Assembly (NCBI RefSeq): GCF_008124625.1
Contig: NZ_VNHM01000016.1
Location: 1 to 63,698 of the forward strand
Source of the DNA: Desulfallas thermosapovorans DSM 6562
GTDB lineage: Bacteria > Bacillota > Desulfotomaculia > Desulfotomaculales > Desulfallaceae
Direction: 5' to 3'
Length of the DNA: 63,698 bases
In this document: one piece after another, positions 37,589-56,125 of the stretch
How the letters are laid out: each line of letters opens with the position of its first letter
How positions within the stretch are numbered: the stretch's first letter is position 1
Translations under genes and position numbers: made by a program
Notes under the pieces: generated by a model
Database searches by the model: none
Seen by the model: only the letters and a program-made list of their open reading frames with translations
Told to the model about the DNA's origin: nothing

Positions 37589-37616
37589 TTGACATTGTGC
37601 AGGGATGTGGTAAAAT
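37589..37616 (+). promoter_or_regulatory. Promoter of the T-box leader
   Basis: TTGACA (37589-37594), 16 bases, TAAAAT (37611-37616). The T-box leader begins shortly after. Confidence 0.75.
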
Positions 37617-37621
37617 CATTA

Positions 37622-37920
37622 CAAATTACTGATGTTAAAGGTAATGAAGGGGAAAAGTAGGCGGAACACAGCTTTTCAGGGAGGAAGCGTCATGGACTGC
37701 GAGCGCTTCTAAAGTATGATTCGTTGAAGTTCTCCCCCGAACTGCCGGGCTGAAACCACTTGCAAGTAGGTCCGGACGGAAACTTCCACCGTTAAAAGGA
37801 AGGGGGTATAAGGAATATTTCCCGTACCCTGCAAACGAGTGGGTCTTTATGGACCAACAAGGGTGGTACCGCGAAACTACTTTTCGTCCCTTATGAGGAT
37901 GAAAAGTTTTTTTATTTTAT
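37622..37920 (+). ncRNA. T-box leader with first antiterminator/terminator
   Basis: A tRNA-sensing leader. Stem I covers about 37645-37770 and has the AAAGTA box near its base and an apical AGGGAGG...TGGACTGCGAG region. A stem III hairpin follows. The T-box AAGGGTGGTACCGCG is at 37859-37873. The terminator stem ACTTTTCGTCC/GGATGAAAAGT (37879-37889, 37897-37907) ends in T7. Uncharged tRNA pairing with GGTACC-side bases would favour readthrough. The specifier probably lies in GAAGTTCTCC (37726-37735). GTT (Val), TTC (Phe) or CTC (Leu) are all possible and I could not settle which. Controls the livJHMGF-paaK operon. Confidence 0.85.
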
Positions 37921-38046
37921 ACACCCCCGCAGCAGGCAGGGAGGGTTATTCCCGTACTCTTGGAGCGGGTTATTTTTAATAACCAATCGGGGTGGTACCG
38001 CGGAAGGCCACAGCTTTCGTCCCTACGGAAGCTGTGGCCTTTTTAT
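37921..38046 (+). ncRNA. Second, partial T-box module (antiterminator/terminator only)
   Basis: Directly downstream lies a second T-box sequence, CGGGGTGGTACCGCGG (37988-38003). A stem III-like hairpin precedes it (CCCGTACTCTTGGAGCGGG) and a full terminator follows it (AGGCCACAGCTTT/GGAAGCTGTGGCCT, then TTTTTAT). Only about 70 bases separate it from the first terminator, so it has no Stem I of its own and cannot read a codon independently. Confidence 0.8.
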
Positions 38047-38173: not shown

Positions 38174-39367
38174 TTGAAAAACTTATTAAAATTCAAAAGC
38201 TCAAACATTATGTTGGTTGCTGTTTTAGCTTTGATTATATTGGTCAGTGGGTGTGCAGCCGGTGGTGAAAAAGATAAGCAAAATGTCAGTGGTGAAGAGT
38301 CATACAAAATAGGGGCAGTTATAGACATTAGCGGCAATTCTTCGTCCCTGGGAGTACCCGAACGGGATACTTTACAAATGCTGGTTGAAAATTTAAACGC
38401 CGGCGGTGGTATTAACGGTCACCCTGTGGAGTTGACCATTTTGGATAATAAAAGTGATGAAACCGAGGCTGTTCTGGCCGCAAAAACTTTAATTGAGCAG
38501 GACGTTTTAGCCGTGCTGGGCTGTGCTTCCAGCGGGCCGTCCATGGCCATGATCAACACCCTCCAAAAGGAAAAGGTGCCTATGATATCAATGGCGGCGG
38601 CCAGCAGTATAGTGGAACCGGTGGAAGAGAGGCACTGGGTGTTTAAAACCGCCCAGAGCGATATAGTAACGGTCAGTAATATAATTAGTTACTTGAAGGA
38701 AAACGGTTTAACCAAAGTAGCCTTTCTGTATATGAATAACGCTTATGGCGATGGTGGTAAAAAAGCGTTCCTGACCGCAGCCCGGGAAAATAACGTCGAA
38801 GTAGTGGTTGAGGAAAAATTTGAGGCCAGTGATAAAGATATGACCGCGCAGTTAACCAGGGTGAAATCGAGCCCGGCACAGGCTACGGTGGTTTGGGCCA
38901 TCCCGCCCTCAGCTTCTATATTAACTAAAAACTACCGGGATTTGGGCATTGCAGCCCTGCTTATCCACAGCCACGGTGTGGGCAACCAAAAGTTTATTGA
39001 CCTGGCCCAGGGTGCTGCGGACGGCGTAATTTTACCCATCGGCAAGTTGACGGTGGTGGAACAAATCCCGGACGACGATCCCCAGAAAAAGGTGCTGCAA
39101 AGTTATATCGATGACTATACCAAAAAGTACAATATGCTGCCGGATTCCTTCGGGGGATACGCCTGGGACGCCTTTCACCTGGTGGTAAAGGCCATTGAAA
39201 AGGCCGGACCCGATCGCGGCGCCATCCGGGATGAGCTTGAAAACACCCGGGAATTTGTGGGAGTATCCGGTGTATTTAACATGTCGCCCCGGGACCACAA
39301 CGGCCTGGATAAAGAATCAATGGTCATGGTGCGCATTGAGAATGGCAAGTGGAAGCTCCTGGATTAA
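38174..39367 (+). CDS. livJ: Branched-chain-type amino acid ABC transporter substrate-binding lipoprotein
   Basis: 397 aa. Lipoprotein signal with Cys27 (LIILVSGC), then a periplasmic-binding type I fold (about 45-395): YKIGAVIDISGNSSSLG, LNAGGGINGHPVEL, AVLGCASSGPSMAM, FLYMNNAYGDGGKKA, GYAWDAFHLVVKAIEKAG. It feeds the LivHMGF channel encoded next. Family members bind branched-chain amino acids, but many in anaerobes bind aromatic acids; the paaK gene in the same operon leaves both open. It starts at TTG 38174 after AAGGAGGG, preceded by the tandem T-box leader. Confidence 0.9.
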   Translation: MKNLLKFKSSNIMLVAVLALIILVSGCAAGGEKDKQNVSGEESYKIGAVIDISGNSSSLGVPERDTLQMLVENLNAGGGINGHPVELTILDNKSDETEAVLAAKTLIEQDVLAVLGCASSGPSMAMINTLQKEKVPMISMAAASSIVEPVEERHWVFKTAQSDIVTVSNIISYLKENGLTKVAFLYMNNAYGDGGKKAFLTAARENNVEVVVEEKFEASDKDMTAQLTRVKSSPAQATVVWAIPPSASILTKNYRDLGIAALLIHSHGVGNQKFIDLAQGAADGVILPIGKLTVVEQIPDDDPQKKVLQSYIDDYTKKYNMLPDSFGGYAWDAFHLVVKAIEKAGPDRGAIRDELENTREFVGVSGVFNMSPRDHNGLDKESMVMVRIENGKWKLLD

Positions 39368-39392: not shown

Positions 39393-40274
39393 ATGCACAT
39401 GTCAGATCAACTCCTGCAGCTTTTGTTTGCCGGGCTCACGCTGGGTAGTATCTATGCTCTAATTGCTCTGGCACTGGTAACCACCTTTAACCTTACCGGC
39501 GTTTTAAACCTGGCCCAGGGTGAATTTGTGGCCATCGGGGCCTTACTGGCCATCAGTATATATGCAGCCGGGTTGCCTATGGCAGCGGCCTTTATCCTAG
39601 CGGTTTTTTTGGTGGCAATGCTGGGAGGGTTGCTGGAAAGAACGGCCATTCACACTGCCCGCCAGGCCTCGGGGCTTACCCTGATCATTATCACCATTGG
39701 CCTGGCAATATCCCTGCGGGGTCTGGCGTTGCTGGTTTGGGGCACTGAAACATATTCACTGCCCGCCTTTTCCGGGGGCGGCCCCCTGTTTATCAGGGGG
39801 GCCGCCGTAACTCCCCAGAGTTTATGGGTTTTTGGGCTGGTTGCGGTGACTCTGGCGGTTTTGTACTTCTTTTTCGAGCATACTTATTGGGGGAAAGCAG
39901 TAAAAGCATCCATGGTCAACCGGACAGCGGCCAGGTTGGTGGGTATAAACCCCAACACCGTATCTCTTCTGGCCTTCATCACCAGCGGGGCGCTGGGGGC
40001 GGCAGCGGGGATTTTCATTGCCCCCATCACCATGACCACCTATGATATGGGTTTTATGCTCGGGGTGAAAGGCTTTGTGGCCGCGGTTATCGGCGGTTTG
40101 GGCAATGTCGGTGGCGCTGTGTTGGGGGGGCTGCTGCTGGGTATTTTAGAGTCCTATAGCGCCGGGTTGATTTCCTCGGGGTCCAAGGATGCCATTGCCA
40201 TAATTATTTTGCTGGCCGTCCTTTTGATGAGACCCGGGGGGCTCATTGGTGCTATCGGGCAGCGCAAGGTATAA
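39393..40274 (+). CDS. livH: Branched-chain-type ABC transporter permease LivH
   Basis: 293-aa membrane protein with about eight spans and the LivH landmarks: GLTLGSIYALIALALVTTFN near the N-terminus, LNLAQGEFVAIGAL, and VKGFVAAVIGGLGNVGGAVLGGLLLGI in the loop that contacts the ATPases. It starts at ATG 39393 (ATG 39399 is an alternative) after GAGGTG. Second gene of the T-box-controlled operon. Confidence 0.9.
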   Translation: MHMSDQLLQLLFAGLTLGSIYALIALALVTTFNLTGVLNLAQGEFVAIGALLAISIYAAGLPMAAAFILAVFLVAMLGGLLERTAIHTARQASGLTLIIITIGLAISLRGLALLVWGTETYSLPAFSGGGPLFIRGAAVTPQSLWVFGLVAVTLAVLYFFFEHTYWGKAVKASMVNRTAARLVGINPNTVSLLAFITSGALGAAAGIFIAPITMTTYDMGFMLGVKGFVAAVIGGLGNVGGAVLGGLLLGILESYSAGLISSGSKDAIAIIILLAVLLMRPGGLIGAIGQRKV

Positions 40275-40374
40275 AGTTAAAAATTTATGCGTAAAATGTA
40301 GAGTTTTATATCAAAGAATAGCACTGGCGGGTTTGATAGCCACTGGCTGCTAAGGCCAAAGAGGTGAATTGATT

Positions 40375-41391
40375 ATGTGGGGAAAAAATAAAAAATATTT
40401 CTGGTTGGCCGCGGCACTGGGTTTTTTAGCCATACCCCTTATTGTCAAGAGTAATTATATCATTAGCACCCTTATCGTTATTGGTCTTTACGCTATTTTA
40501 GTGCAGGGGTTGGGTATTTTAATGGGTTATGCCGGTCAGGTATCCTTCGGCCACGCCGCTTTTTTCGGACTGGGGGCTTATGCGGTGGCCATACTGACGA
40601 CACATTATAGCTGGCCCACAATTCCGGCGCTGGGAGCTGCGGTGCTGCTGCCCGGCATGGTTGCCGCCGTAATTGGCAGGCCCACGCTAAAGTTACAGGA
40701 GCTTTACCTTGCCCTGGCCACCCTGGGCTTTGGCATACTGGTGCACATTGCCTTTACCGAAGGCGGGGAAATGACCGGGGGCCCTTCAGGGCTTTCCGGG
40801 ATTCCCTACCTGTCCGTCGGCGGTTTAGTCTTTGACAGTGATGTCAAGTTCTTCTATCTGGTCTGGATCTTGTTGTTTCTGCTTTTGGCGGGCATGAATA
40901 ATTTGGTTCGCTCCCGGGTGGGCAGGGCGCTGCGGGCCATCAGTGAAAGTGAATATGCCGCGGAAAACGCCGGTATAGATACGGTGGGGCTCAAATTGCA
41001 ATCCTTTGTTTTCAGTGCCCTGCTGGCCGGCCTGGCCGGTGGATTATACGCATTTTATATCACTTTTATCAGCCCGTCCCCCTTTAGCTTCCATGCTTCG
41101 GTGCAGTTTGTGCTGATGGCTGTGGTGGGTGGCCTGGGCACCCTCACGGGGCCTCTGCTGGGAGCCGCCCTGGTGGTCGCACTGGGTGAGGTACTGCGCT
41201 GGGCGGTGCCGCTGGTGATACCCGGGGCGGGTGGTGAATACCAGATTATATTTTTCGGGTTGATACTGGTTATATTGATGGTTCTTCAGCCCGGCGGGCT
41301 TGGTGCCCTGGGTAAACTGCTTGGGACACCCGCAAAAAGACTACCCGGTAAGGGTGCAGATACAAGGTTATTAGAAAGCCAGGGGGGGTAA
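40375..41391 (+). CDS. livM: Branched-chain-type ABC transporter permease LivM
   Basis: 338-aa membrane protein pairing with LivH. Diagnostic segments are LGILMGYAGQVSFGHAAFFGLGAY, SEYAAENAGIDTVGLKLQSFV, and VGGLGTLTGPLLGAALVVAL followed by IIFFGLILVILMVLQPGGL. I chose ATG 40375 because GAGGTGA lies 7 bases upstream; an in-frame TTG at 40369 is closer to it. A short non-coding gap separates livH and livM. Confidence 0.9.
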   Translation: MWGKNKKYFWLAAALGFLAIPLIVKSNYIISTLIVIGLYAILVQGLGILMGYAGQVSFGHAAFFGLGAYAVAILTTHYSWPTIPALGAAVLLPGMVAAVIGRPTLKLQELYLALATLGFGILVHIAFTEGGEMTGGPSGLSGIPYLSVGGLVFDSDVKFFYLVWILLFLLLAGMNNLVRSRVGRALRAISESEYAAENAGIDTVGLKLQSFVFSALLAGLAGGLYAFYITFISPSPFSFHASVQFVLMAVVGGLGTLTGPLLGAALVVALGEVLRWAVPLVIPGAGGEYQIIFFGLILVILMVLQPGGLGALGKLLGTPAKRLPGKGADTRLLESQGG

Positions 41392-41396
41392 GTACG

Positions 41397-42164
41397 GTGT
41401 TTTTAGAGGTAAGCGGGCTGACCAAATCATTTGGCGGCATTACCGCGGCCAGGAATGTGGGGTTTAGTATAAGCAGCGGGAGTATCTTTGCCTTGATTGG
41501 CCCCAACGGTGCAGGTAAAACCACCATCTTCAATTTGATCACCGGTACGCTGCAACCTGATCAGGGTGTCATCAGCCTGGAGGGCAAACAACTGGTTGGA
41601 CTAAAACCTCACCAAATAGCGGCCGCGGGCATTACACGTACATTTCAAAATTTACAGTTGTTCGGTGCCATGACCGTGCTGGAAAATGTGGTTACCGGTG
41701 CTTATTTAAAGGGCAGAACGGGCTTTGCCAAGTCTATTTTTTGCCGGCCCGGCAAAAGCAGCGAAGAGCGCAGAATAAAAAATGAAGCCATGGAACTGCT
41801 GGATGAAGTGGGGCTGGCGGATGCTGCCGATTTGCCGGCGGCAGCGCTGCCCTTCGGACAGCAAAGGCTTTTGGAGATAGCCAGGGCGCTGGCCTCCGGT
41901 CCCCGCCTGGTACTGCTGGATGAACCCGCAGCCGGGCTGAACAGCGCGGAAACCAAAGTGCTGGCCGGTTATTTAAAGAAGCTGAGAAACAAAGGTTTAA
42001 CCATGATGCTTATCGAGCACGACATGGATACTGTTATGGATGTGGCCGATGGTGTTTTAGTACTGAATTTCGGCGAGGTAATTGCGGAAGGGACGCCCCG
42101 GGAAATCCAAACCAACCCGGAAGTGATCAAAGCTTATCTCGGGGAGGTTGAGCGAATTGCTTGA
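41397..42164 (+). CDS. livG: Branched-chain-type ABC transporter ATPase LivG
   Basis: 255 aa. Walker A GPNGAGKTT, Q-loop TFQNLQLFGAMTVLEN, signature region reading LPFGQQRLLEIARAL (FGQQR for the usual YGQQR), Walker B LVLLDEPAAGLNS and LIEHDMDTVMDVADGVLVLN. The long insert between Q-loop and signature is normal for LivG. Starts at GTG 41397, 5 bases after livM, and overlaps livF. Confidence 0.92.
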   Translation: MFLEVSGLTKSFGGITAARNVGFSISSGSIFALIGPNGAGKTTIFNLITGTLQPDQGVISLEGKQLVGLKPHQIAAAGITRTFQNLQLFGAMTVLENVVTGAYLKGRTGFAKSIFCRPGKSSEERRIKNEAMELLDEVGLADAADLPAAALPFGQQRLLEIARALASGPRLVLLDEPAAGLNSAETKVLAGYLKKLRNKGLTMMLIEHDMDTVMDVADGVLVLNFGEVIAEGTPREIQTNPEVIKAYLGEVERIA

Positions 42165-42891
42165 AATTAACAGGCTGGATGTATATTATGGTTACGTGCA
42201 AGCACTTCGGGGCCTGTCCCTGAAGGTGCAAAAAGGGGTGCTGCTGGCCATTGTAGGTGCCAACGGAGCCGGCAAGAGCACCCTGCTGGAAACGCTGGCG
42301 GGTTTGCACAGGCCTGCCGGGGGAGATATAATACTCAAAGGAAAATCCATTGCTGGAAAACCACCTGAATATATTGTCAAGCAGGGTATCAGCCTGGTGC
42401 CCGAACGGAGGGAAATTTTCCATTCCCTCAGTGTGCAGGATAATTTGCTGCTGGGCGCATACCACCGTTACCGCAGTGACAGGAAAGAAATTATTGCCGA
42501 CATGGAAGATGTTCTGGAGCTTTTCCCCGCCCTCAAGGGCAGGGAGCGGGATTTGGCCGGGGGATTGAGCGGGGGATTACAACAAATGCTGGCCATCGGC
42601 AGAGGGCTGATGGCCCGCCCCAAGCTGCTGCTGTTGGATGAACCCTCCACCGGCCTGGCACCCCTGGTGGTGCGTGAAATAATGTCGTCCCTGAAAAAGC
42701 TTAAAAATGCCGGCGTTACCATTGTTCTGGTGGAACAGAATACGCAGCACGCATTGAGAATAGCTGATCACGTGCTGGTTATGGAGCGGGGGCGGGTTAC
42801 CTTAAGCGGTAGTTCCCGGGAAATAATGTCCGACTTCCGGGTACAGCAAGCTTACCTTGGCCGGAACAGGGTGGAACCCGCCATGGCTTAG
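42148..42891 (+). CDS. livF: Branched-chain-type ABC transporter ATPase LivF
   Basis: 247 aa. It carries LDVYYGYVQALRGLSLKV, Walker A GANGAGKST, LVPERREIFHSLSVQDNL, signature LSGGLQQMLAIGRGL, Walker B LLLLDEPSTGLAP and VLVEQNTQHALRIADHVLVME, all LivF traits. TTG 42148 overlaps livG by 17 bases; a second TTG at 42157 is better spaced from GGGGAGG and may be the real start. Forms the ATPase pair with LivG. Confidence 0.92.
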   Translation: MSELLEINRLDVYYGYVQALRGLSLKVQKGVLLAIVGANGAGKSTLLETLAGLHRPAGGDIILKGKSIAGKPPEYIVKQGISLVPERREIFHSLSVQDNLLLGAYHRYRSDRKEIIADMEDVLELFPALKGRERDLAGGLSGGLQQMLAIGRGLMARPKLLLLDEPSTGLAPLVVREIMSSLKKLKNAGVTIVLVEQNTQHALRIADHVLVMERGRVTLSGSSREIMSDFRVQQAYLGRNRVEPAMA

Positions 42892-42960
42892 GCAAGTTGG
42901 GGAGTTAAAAATATTTGGTTGACTGGCAAAAACAAATCTTAAAAGAGGAGATAGGTGAAC

Positions 42961-44259
42961 ATGTACTGGAATCCCGAATACGAAACCATGTCCCGTGATG
43001 AATTGGCCCGGTTGCAACTGAAAAGGCTGCAGGCTTCGGTGGAGAGAACCTATCATAGCGTTCCGTTCTACCGCCAGACCTTTAAAAAAAATAACGTGAC
43101 TCCCGGTGATTTGCGTACCCTGGATGACTTGCGCAGGCTGCCTTTCACCGTGAAGACCGATTTGCGGGACAACTACCCCTTTGGCTTGTTTGCCGTACCG
43201 CAGGATAAAGTGGTGCGGTTGCACGCATCATCCGGCACAACGGGCAAACCAATCGTAGTGGGTTACACCCAAAACGACATCGATACCTGGGCCAATCTAA
43301 TGGCCAGGGCGCTGGCTATGGCCGGGGGCGGCAAAAATGACGTTGTACAGGTCGGCTACGGGTACGGCCTTTTCACCGGGGGGTTGGGCGCCCATTATGG
43401 TGCCGAACGATTGGGGGCCACGGTGGTGCCTGCTTCGGGCGGGAACACCAGCAGGCAGCTCATGTTGATGCAGGATTTCGGCACCACCATTTTGGCCTGT
43501 ACCCCTTCCTATGCCTTATACCTTGCTGAAGAAGGCGCAAACCAGGGGATTGATTTCACCAAACTGCCTTTAAGGGCGGGGGTTTTTGGGGCCGAGCCCT
43601 GGTCGGAGCGCATGAGACAGCAGCTGGAAGAGAAGTTGGATATTGTAGCGCTGGATATTTACGGGCTGAGTGAGGTGATGGGCCCCGGGGTGGCCATGGA
43701 ATGCCAGGCCAAACAGGGCATGCACATCTTTGAGGATCACTTCATCGCTGAAGTGATTGACCCCGATACGGGGGAACCGGTTCCTTACGGTGAACCGGGT
43801 GAGCTGGTGATCACATCTTTGACCAAGGAAGCCTTCCCGGTGATACGTTACAGAACCAGGGATATAACTGTCCTGAACCCGGAACCTTGCTCTTGCGGGC
43901 GTACCCACGTGCGGATGCAACGGGTCACCGGTCGCAGCGATGACATGTTGATCGTCAGGGGGGTTAATGTATTCCCATCCCAAATTGAGAGTATACTGCT
44001 GGAGTTCGGGGAAACCCAGCCCCATTACCTGCTGGTGGTGGATCGCAAAGGCACCATGGATGACCTGGAGATTTGGGTGGAGTTGTCCTCCGAGATGTTC
44101 AATGATAAGGTGCGTTTGCTGGAGGATCTAGAACGCAGACTGCGTTCCCGCATTAACAGCGTGCTGGGTATTTCATCGCGCATCAAACTGGTGGAGCCCC
44201 GGACCATCCCCCGCAGTGAGGGTAAGGCCAAGCGGGTCGTTGATAAGCGGGAGATTTAA
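42961..44259 (+). CDS. paaK: Phenylacetate-CoA ligase
   Basis: 432 aa of the PaaK group of adenylate-forming ligases. Motifs: [19 protein letters not shown] at the N-terminus, [17 protein letters not shown] (ATP loop), [37 protein letters not shown] and ITGRSDDM-type [23 protein letters not shown]. It makes aryl-CoA from phenylacetate or a similar aromatic acid, ATP and CoA. ATG 42961 fits the family start; GTG 42955 is the longer option. Lying in the T-box operon, it suggests the transporter brings in an aromatic acid or an amino acid degraded to one (for example Phe to phenylacetate). Confidence 0.9.
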
Positions 44260-54969: not shown

Positions 54970-55845
54970 TTAACCGTCCAGCCTGTCAGGGAAGAACAGC
55001 GGACTGCCGTATTTATCCACACCGAATTCCTTGATTGTTTCCTGGGTATCTTTATCGATCATAAACTCCACAAAGGCTTTGGCCCCTTCGGCATTAATCC
55101 GGTCGAATTTTTCCGGGTTCACCTGCATGACGTGGTAAATGTTTTTCAACGCTTCGTCACCTTCGGAAACAATCTCCAGATCGATGTTTTTTGATTGGGC
55201 CAGGAAGGTACCGCGGTCACTGAGTATGTAGGCCTGTTTTTCGTTGGCTACGGTTATGCTGGCACCCATGCCCTGACCGGTTTCCTGATACCATGCTTGT
55301 CCTGCAGGGTCAATTCCGGCGTCTTTCCACAGGCTTTTTTCCATTTTATCAGTACCCGAGTCATCGCCCCGGGAAATAAACAATGCGCCATTATCCGCTA
55401 TCTTTCTGAATGCCTCCAGAATATCGGTGGTACCTTTCACCTGGGCCGGGTCCCCGGGGGGGCCCAGCAGCACGAAATCATTATGCATAACCAGCTGGTA
55501 GTTAATGACCGTCTGGTCTTCCACCAGCGGCTTTTCGGCGTCAGGAGCATGTACCAACAGCACATCGGCGTTGCCCATTTTGCCCATTTCCAATGCCTGC
55601 CCGGTCCCTACGGGCACTGTTTTAACAGTGTAGCCGGTTTGTTCCTGGAATTGGGGTACCAACACATCCAGCAAACCGCTATCCTGGGTGCTGGTGGTGG
55701 TGGCCAGGATAATATTTTTATTATCCGGTTGGGCCGATTGTTGCTCCTGCTGCTGGTTGTCATTTGCATTCTGAGCGCAGCCCACCAGCGCCGTCAACAG
55801 CGCCAGCACTAAGATCATCACAATAAGCGGGCTTTTTCTTTGCAT
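54970..55845 (-). CDS. tupA: Tungstate ABC transporter substrate-binding lipoprotein
   Basis: 291 aa. Lipoprotein signal with Cys23 (LLTALVGC), an acidic-Gln linker, then a type II periplasmic-binding fold. The TupA hallmark ATTTSTQDSGLL and VPVGTGQALEMGKMGNADVLLVH is followed by FVLLGPPGDPA and FISRGDDSGTDKMEKSLW. Family members bind tungstate with very high affinity for aldehyde oxidoreductases and formate dehydrogenases. The permease tupB and ATPase tupC are not next to it. A riboswitch-like leader precedes it at 55947-56085. Confidence 0.88.
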   Translation of the reverse strand: MQRKSPLIVMILVLALLTALVGCAQNANDNQQQEQQSAQPDNKNIILATTTSTQDSGLLDVLVPQFQEQTGYTVKTVPVGTGQALEMGKMGNADVLLVHAPDAEKPLVEDQTVINYQLVMHNDFVLLGPPGDPAQVKGTTDILEAFRKIADNGALFISRGDDSGTDKMEKSLWKDAGIDPAGQAWYQETGQGMGASITVANEKQAYILSDRGTFLAQSKNIDLEIVSEGDEALKNIYHVMQVNPEKFDRINAEGAKAFVEFMIDKDTQETIKEFGVDKYGSPLFFPDRLDG

Positions 55846-55946: not shown

Positions 55947-56085
55947 AAAAAATAAAAAGCCCTGCATTGCCAAGAAGGAGCATGCAGGGTTATAACCTAG
56001 CGGTTCTCTTCTTTCCGCAATGGGAGGCGGTCCGGTTTCCCGGTCCACCCTACCGGTCAGGCATCCATAACATAAAGTCTGCAGG
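55947..56085 (-). ncRNA. Moco/Tuco-type riboswitch-like leader with terminator
   Basis: Read in minus sense, 56075-55995 contains CCTGACCGGTAGGGTGGA, a CCGG-GAAA-CCGG tetraloop hairpin, ACCGCCTCCC and a GCGGAAAGAAGAGAACCGC hairpin. These parts are reminiscent of molybdenum/tungsten cofactor riboswitches. A terminator follows, CCCTGCAT/ATGCAGGG (55982-55989 with 55960-55967) ending in a T-rich run, and then tupA. A Tuco switch upstream of a tungstate importer is the expected biology. I matched it from memory of the motif, not by a covariance search. Confidence 0.6.
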
Positions 56086-56125
56086 ATATCCCGACTCGAA
56101 GAGTTATATTTTACTCATTTATATA

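Follow-up and report, generated by a model that had tools for sequence, protein, structure and literature searches.

How does a riboswitch decide a second time when it has a single sensor? In Desulfallas thermosapovorans DSM 6562, a T-box leader carries one codon-reading Stem I followed by two antiterminator-terminator pairs. It lies within the window analyzed here, the whole 63,698-nt stretch of contig NZ_VNHM01000016.1. For the second pair, the first-pass annotation offered two readings: recognition of the tRNA end without a codon check, or a general second gate. The arrangement of one Stem I with two discriminator/terminator units stood up in our analysis. These two are not the sole readings of it, and comparison with related leaders points to a third, to which we give roughly even odds (about 0.5): in this Phe T-box leader, one tRNA-reading part would serve two discriminator-terminator units by way of a linker helix that can be exchanged between them, placing a second decision behind the same Stem I.

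Architecture of the leader

In a profile search, unit 1 matched positions 1-219 of RF00230, the whole model, at 125.8 bits (gathering score 93), a whole-model match above the curated score that places it among T-box riboswitches (Table 1). Unit 2 extends over 37895-38046 and consists of Stem III, a T-box antiterminator and a terminator, with no Stem I and no Stem II. A short search matched 37895-38027 to model positions 124-219 only, at 38.2 bits (below gathering; E 2.9e-7). Taken alone, unit 2 in the window thus has the Stem III, UGGN antiterminator and competing terminator of a T-box riboswitch and lacks the Stem I with its specifier loop. A full match followed by a partial one bears out the observation of one Stem I with two T-box/terminator units. 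The leader is therefore a partially tandem T-box (one Stem I, then two antiterminator-terminator units) rather than a fully tandem one, in which each unit has its own Stem I.

The first-pass annotation had flagged the possibility of a hidden Stem I within 37921-37987, which we looked for by fold and by profile and did not find. From the end of the terminator 1 T run (37913) to the start of the second Stem III (37967) there are 53 nt, which is too short for a Stem I, and the MFE fold places no long arm between these elements, just a short local hairpin; we therefore reject a hidden Stem I, and the profile match is likewise confined to positions 124-219. In the same fold, CACCCC of the unit-2 interlude, the stretch that bears Y2, pairs with GGGGUG of the second T-box. 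The 166-nt stretch holding unit 2 folds better than 200 of 200 dinucleotide shuffles (z -5.2).

Terminator 1 was called by the scan at 37879-37907, and only part of the second hairpin was called (38023-38037); four sites were called overall against 0.8 expected. The promoter-like site in Table 1 is one of two found by the consensus scan against 1.5 expected by chance, a number not above chance.

Table 1. Features of the tandem leader and the downstream genes in window coordinates
Feature	Position	Strand	Basis
Promoter-like site, TTGACA-16-TAAAAT	37589-37616	+	Predicted; consensus scan, 11/12
Unit 1, complete T-box leader (Stem I, II, IIA/B, III, antiterminator)	37635-37894	+	RF00230
Specifier UUC (Phe), 3' side of Stem I specifier loop, in GAAG-UUC-U (37726-37733)	37730-37732	+	Rfam register, calibrated
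F-box end, CACCGUUA (Stem IIA/B)	37787-37794	+	Sequence; region so aligned by the Rfam model
X, 5' arm and loop of linker hairpin	37802-37817	+	Fold; class-level complementarity peak to unit 2 in related leaders
Y1, 3' arm and tail of linker hairpin, 5' of first Stem III	37818-37832	+	Fold
Stem III of unit 1	37839-37855	+	Rfam alignment
Antiterminator 1 with T-box bulge UGGU	37860-37891	+	Rfam alignment
Terminator 1 hairpin and T run	37875-37913	+	Sequence and terminator scan
5' part of unit-2 strand, GCAGG(G), putatively complementary to Y1 tail CCCUGC	37929-37945	+	Sequence
Y2, strand 5' of second Stem III, proposed alternative partner of X	37946-37960	+	Class-level support; weak in the window alone
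Stem III of unit 2	37967-37984	+	Rfam alignment, fold
Antiterminator 2 with T-box bulge UGGU	37989-38024	+	Rfam alignment
Terminator 2 hairpin and T run (whole hairpin 38006-38039)	38006-38044	+	Fold, coordinates
Gene 1, Liv-type periplasmic binding protein	38174-39367	+	Pfam Peripla_BP_6, 192.7 bits
Liv-type permeases	39393-40274, 40369-41391	+	NCBIfam best matches LivH, LivM, below curated cut-offs
Liv-type ATPases	41397-42164, 42148-42891	+	NCBIfam best matches LivG, LivF, below curated cut-offs
Phenylacetate-CoA ligase-like gene	42955-44259	+	TIGR02155 PaaK, 618 bits, under cut-off 646

Specifier and regulated genes

We calibrated the specifier register by eye on T-boxes of the same genome, with gene names assigned likewise: ileS-like AUC, thrS-like ACC, metS-like AUG, glyQ-like GGC, valS-like GUC, ilvE-like AUC and pheS-like UUC. 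The specifier sits in GAA-N-NNN-R, or at the same spot without GAA, ahead of the base of the specifier loop. In this register the window's leader reads UUC. A branched-chain specifier, for which the liv-like genes might speak, was rejected, as CUC needs a shift of two positions.

The UUC specifier fits the regulated genes, which include a PaaK-like gene here and aromatic genes behind sister leaders. By its position, the PaaK-like gene probably belongs to the same operon as the transporter, and its product is 84% identical to the one behind another Phe partial tandem (L060). Judged from sequence, aromatic compounds would fit the transporter and the PaaK-like gene better than branched-chain amino acids would. 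Phenylacetate activation can lead towards phenylalanine. PaaK-like genes lie behind Phe T-boxes both in the window and at 17 sister leaders, which suggests that phenylacetate may be activated towards phenylalanine synthesis.

The genome holds 14 T-box leaders, and a second-unit match follows in two of them alone: the window's leader and one, also with UUC, in front of a prephenate dehydratase gene (the pheA-type leader, L009/L142). In the latter, unit 2 lies 218 nt behind the first T-box core, and a long hairpin, seen by eye, is inserted between terminator 1 and Y2.

Two further RNA elements were noted in this genome. A Moco/tungsten riboswitch (RF01055, 61.3 bits; 55992-56113, minus strand) precedes a binding-protein-like ORF (54970-55845, minus strand) that by eye is of the tungstate/molybdate kind. 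In another T-box leader (L002/L312; G000:C12:28454-28745, minus strand, 140.6 bits), the place of Stem III is taken by a complete tRNA-Ala gene with anticodon GGC. ARAGORN calls this gene in the window's own genome and in all nine further relatives scanned (L313-L321), where the leader aligns at 81-92%. By eye, its specifier looks like CUC (Leu) by register and the next ORF is AMP-binding-like. Among the titles listed by a literature search, none names a tRNA gene inside a T-box leader.

The layout recurs in Phe and His leaders

A search of other genomes for the same layout, as the first-pass annotation had proposed, was productive. Pairs of T-box cores separated by 86-146 nt, with an intervening T run, occurred in 70 of 113 genomes of the order Desulfotomaculales (96 matches), and the reversed pattern occurred in 0 of 113; a class-level search covers the same 113 genomes. 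Because the layout recurs in the order while the reversed pattern gives no match, chance is ruled out. Named members with the layout, among the matches listed, include Sporotomaculum, Pelotomaculum and Desulfoscipio.

The order set used below comprises 97 leaders: the 95 matches outside the window, the window's leader and the pheA-type leader, whose units are further apart. Register scoring ranked UUC first in 93 of them, second in two (L069, L136) and outside the top three in two (L074, L119), and 96 have GAAGUUC in the region of Stem I, the exception being L119, which is cut by a contig end. Clusters of first genes, built from the longest nearby ORF, numbered 51, 17, 14, 10, 2 and 2, with one leader lacking an ORF. 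Their representatives are, respectively, DAHP synthase, a PaaK-like AMP-binding enzyme, a Liv-type binding protein, a sodium:solute symporter, an ABC_sub_bind protein and prephenate dehydratase (L116 entered the last cluster via a doubtful ORF).

Of 398 genomes sampled across the phylum, 55 had the layout, namely 10 of 15 members of the order and 45 of 383 others. Fifty leaders from this sample, minus four seen before and one without an F-box (L304), make up a held-out set of 45, in which 33 carry GAAGUUC; by eye, some of the remainder lie ahead of trpE- or serC-like ORFs. Scanning named species returned at least 80 loci (81 places), from which no frequency can be derived. These were split into 39 from Lactobacillales, 12 from order members already in the set, a mixed set of 24, and six that were dropped (L149, cut; L201, not T-box-like by look; L166, not found again; L178, L192 and L218, no F-box). 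The many Lactobacillales leaders with this layout among the matches listed precede, by eye, an amino acid permease-like ORF, a 45-aa piece of which had no Pfam match. They carry GAA-N-CACA (His) in 30 of 39 cases, against 3 of the 97 order leaders, and none of the 39 contains GAAGUUC.

Leader-specific complementarity between the linker hairpin and unit 2

Unit 1 has an extra hairpin between the F-box and Stem III, composed of a 5' arm X (GGGUAU..GGAA), a loop, and a 3' arm Y1 (UUCC.GUACCC). By eye, the Y1 arm is repeated in unit 2 as Y2, 5' of the second Stem III, mostly without an X of its own. We paired leader segments of 20-24 nt in silico with the unit-2 interlude of their own leader and with those of other leaders, after removal of leaders at least 75% alike (97 to 33 in the order set).

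In the order set (n=33), the excess in duplex energy for own interludes peaked at the linker hairpin, with z of -7.0, -8.2, -9.4 and -3.8 at +4, +10, +16 and +22 after the F-box. The remaining segments gave -3.8 at -2 (overlapping), -3.9 at -86, -2.7 at -80 and otherwise -1.9 to 1.6. The Lactobacillales set (22 of 39 leaders after dereplication), examined second and after its sequences had been inspected, gave z of -9.1, -13.2, -13.2 and -4.6 for segments from -5 to +10 and a weaker peak elsewhere (-4.4 at -130). The held-out phylum set (n=29 after dereplication) was scanned without looking at its sequences first and gave z -9.6 at +6, -5.1 at 0 and -5.7 at +12, with other segments reaching up to -3.5 (for example -3.4 at +30 and -3.3 at +54). 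The mixed set (n=24) gave z -6.8 at +10. Control stretches 3' of terminator 2 had no excess (z -0.9, n=22; z -0.2, n=32).

Split by gene class, without dereplication, the same comparison gave z -6.0 for DAHP (51 leaders), -3.0 for PaaK (17), -2.0 for liv (14) and -7.5 for the symporter class (10). X and Y are nearly constant among liv leaders, which makes the swap test insensitive there. Against dinucleotide-shuffled interludes, five groups, the window's liv class among them, had their minimum at the linker hairpin (the DAHP group here being 17 dereplicated leaders), and in the liv class (14) the mean z went to -1.75. A motif-based run-length test of the Y2 flank, which parsed 74 of 97 leaders (59 dereplicated) and was superseded by the segment scans, gave 1.98 against 0.96, with 0 of 5000 shuffles as high.

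The match is visible in single leaders, as where X GGAGUUUAGUGAUAA faces Y2 UUAUCACUAAACUCC (L175 and L205), GAGUUGCUUGCAAC faces GUUGCAAGCAACUC (L196), GUGGUUGAAUA faces UAUUCAACCAC (L213), and CUACUUGCA faces UGCAAGUAG (L223). In Lactobacillales, the longest uninterrupted helix averaged 11.0 bp with the own interlude and 7.9 with swapped ones, and helices of at least 12 bp formed in 10 of 22 own pairs versus 2.6% of swapped pairs. The order set gave no such support (8.7 own, 8.5 swapped; helices of at least 12 bp in 0 of 33 own versus 3.4% of swapped pairs). The own interlude was the best partner in just 5 of 33 order leaders, and in 13 of 22 Lactobacillales leaders.

A second, weak own-versus-swapped signal lies close to the 3' half of Stem I, some 80-90 nt upstream of the F-box end; to the order value at -86 given above can be added -3.2 at -84 in the phylum set and, against shuffles, -3.2 at -92 in the window's leader. 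A contact between the interlude and the T-box bulge of unit 1, for which ACCACC in some liv leaders would be a candidate, was noticed by eye and is too scattered to claim.

Competing folds and the purpose of the proposed X-Y2 pairing

Partition-function folds, which span the F-box to Y2 and leave out Stem I/II, the tRNA and transcription speed, predict unit 2 rather than the Y1 side as the favored partner of X in 22 of 22 Lactobacillales leaders, 22 of 33 order leaders, 15 of 29 held-out leaders and 8 of 14 leaders of the liv class. For the pheA-type leader in the window's genome, the predicted pairing of X is 0.54 with unit 2 against 0.20 with the Y1 side.

Such pairing could be real and serve another end: X-Y2 might dismantle unit 1 or close the leader, for example by masking terminator 1 or uncoupling Stem I, with no tRNA presented to unit 2. 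We regard this as unlikely, if the foremost of the alternatives. The swap test is blind to purpose, and in several classes the interlude also matches the Y1 tail (GCAGG with CCCUGC; UUUACCGGU with ACCGGUAAA, by eye), which could break discriminator 1; by eye, a GCAGG-like stretch is present in many liv and PaaK leaders as well. Against it stands the spacing, since Y2 precedes the second T-box core by about the distance at which Y1 precedes the first, with medians of 33 and 35 nt (69 of 97 order leaders). To Stem III the distances are 10 nt in unit 2 and 12 nt in unit 1, with a correlation of just 0.30 (62 of 97 leaders), and in Lactobacillales a TGAGG-like motif lies 34 and 33 nt before the core in units 1 and 2 (30 of 39).

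The features of unit 2 are likewise mostly kept, which a strand for mere dismantling would not need. UGGU is present in unit 1 of all 97 order leaders and in unit 2 of 95, and terminator hairpins (-8 kcal/mol or better before a T run) are present at terminator 1 in 97 of 97 and at terminator 2 in 88 of 97; in Lactobacillales each terminator is present in 39 of 39. Stem III was recovered for both units in 97 of 97 by a permissive helix search without a shuffled control, a count to which we give no weight. A-A follows the unit-2 Stem III in 66 of 97 order leaders and 33 of 39 from Lactobacillales. In Lactobacillales, the two units agree in the final base of UGGN in just 22 of 39 leaders, which counts against the exchangeable-linker reading.

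The window's own leader and a possible independent second gate

When the interlude of the window's leader was shuffled 2000 times, 129 of the shuffles did as well as the real sequence in pairing with X. Its interlude has its strongest complementarity in Stem I (at -92, z -3.2), the linker segments reaching just -0.9 to -1.7, and X is predicted to pair at 0.03 with Y2 against 0.51 with the Y1 side. The putative X-Y2 helix would thus be weak here, is not predicted to win, and is assigned to this leader on the strength of its relatives. Because the window's own sequence backs X-Y2 weakly, the two first-pass readings keep some likelihood for this particular leader.

Both amount to an independent second gate without a codon check, whether antiterminator 2 is stabilized by any uncharged A73 tRNA or the second terminator is a constant partial one. 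Besides the window's folds, this explanation has in its favor that unit 2 lacks Stem I and yet retains UGGU nearly throughout the order; UGGU suffices for weak acceptor-end binding. It does not predict the leader-specific complementarity between linker hairpin and unit 2, loop included, and we rank it next, again as unlikely.

That unit 2 is a recent duplication relic, with Y2 matching X just as a copy of Y1, is very improbable: by eye, Y1 and Y2 do share a UUCCCGUACC-like motif in most leaders, but the layout recurs across the order and at several gene classes, UGGU and the terminator are mostly kept in unit 2, and the hairpin loop, which lies outside the X-Y1 pairing and would stay unpaired if Y2 were a mere copy, is matched too. 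The fraction of loop nucleotides paired with unit 2 was 0.69 with the own interlude against 0.40 with swapped ones (sd 0.06) in Lactobacillales, and 0.63 against 0.40 (sd 0.05) in the order; the loop was taken from the MFE fold and in a few leaders, such as L200, L083 and L049, is not that of the X-Y1 hairpin.

Discussion

In the exchangeable-linker reading, hairpin X-Y1 would join Stem I/II, with its tRNA, to discriminator 1 for a decision at terminator 1. With RNA polymerase beyond this terminator, the emerging Y2 strand and its 5' flank would invade the hairpin loop and X and displace Y1. This strand exchange would loop unit 1 out, so that the second Stem III and antiterminator 2 take the place of their unit-1 counterparts. 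The outcome would be a second decision behind the same codon reader, which would check for termination once more and probably lower the basal level. The computations show the layout, its recurrence, the Phe specifier, the class-level complementarity and the similar spacing of both discriminators; we infer the exchange during transcription, its occurrence in the window's leader, the re-use of the tRNA or of the Stem I complex and the way the response changes. Against a relay, the complex of T-box and tRNA may hold too firmly for the tRNA to be handed over. A steeper response is possible under all of the readings considered here.

A 2008 survey by Vitreschak and others is said to describe in its abstract "duplicated terminator-antiterminator elements." Partially tandem T-boxes are already in print, with their modes of action called unknown in the accessible text of PMC7583486; by their name, and reportedly in that survey, they have the layout of the window's leader, one Stem I and a repeated antiterminator-terminator part. 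The first-pass annotation took repetition of the whole structure to be usual in known tandem T-boxes, a premise that is therefore incomplete. The same portion of PMC7583486 gives no mechanism and no exchangeable linker helix, unlike the proposal made here. Contiguous, fully tandem T-boxes, such as those of trp, ilv and thrS, resemble the window's leader in placing two serial T-box terminators before amino acid genes and differ from it in that, according to the accessible part of PMC12452182, each has complete sensor and regulatory domains and acts independently on one tRNA. Tandem riboswitches and aptamers are likewise compound RNA switches that sharpen or combine responses; those in the accessible part of PMC9481103 have two aptamers on one platform or are independent full switches, and one sensor with two platforms is not among them. 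A few tandem His T-boxes are recorded for Enterococcus in the portion of PMC9413887 at hand. The corresponding portions of PMC2494555 and PMC7778990 hold nothing on the partial tandem layout beyond a plan to model tandem T-boxes. The layout is thus already known. An exchangeable linker helix between T-box units was not found in the literature searched, and within that literature the mechanism, which has an even chance of being right, is new.

Beyond this one leader, a general principle may apply, which we put forward tentatively, at slightly less than even odds: toehold-like strand exchange in a linker helix would pass a tRNA-loaded Stem I from one expression platform to the next, an arrangement that would have arisen or been retained in the Phe leaders of this order, in those of other clostridial bacteria, and in the His leaders found in Lactobacillales.

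For the organism, the specifier points to a phenylalanine or aromatic role for an operon that homology alone would label as branched-chain amino acid uptake. For T-boxes more widely, the linker helix, seen in at least two lineages and for two amino acids, offers a concrete mechanism that mutants can test. If the proposal is true, these leaders would be a kind of riboswitch that consults its only sensor two times in succession along one transcript, and the relay would offer a natural case of an RNA sensor working for two switches one after the other.
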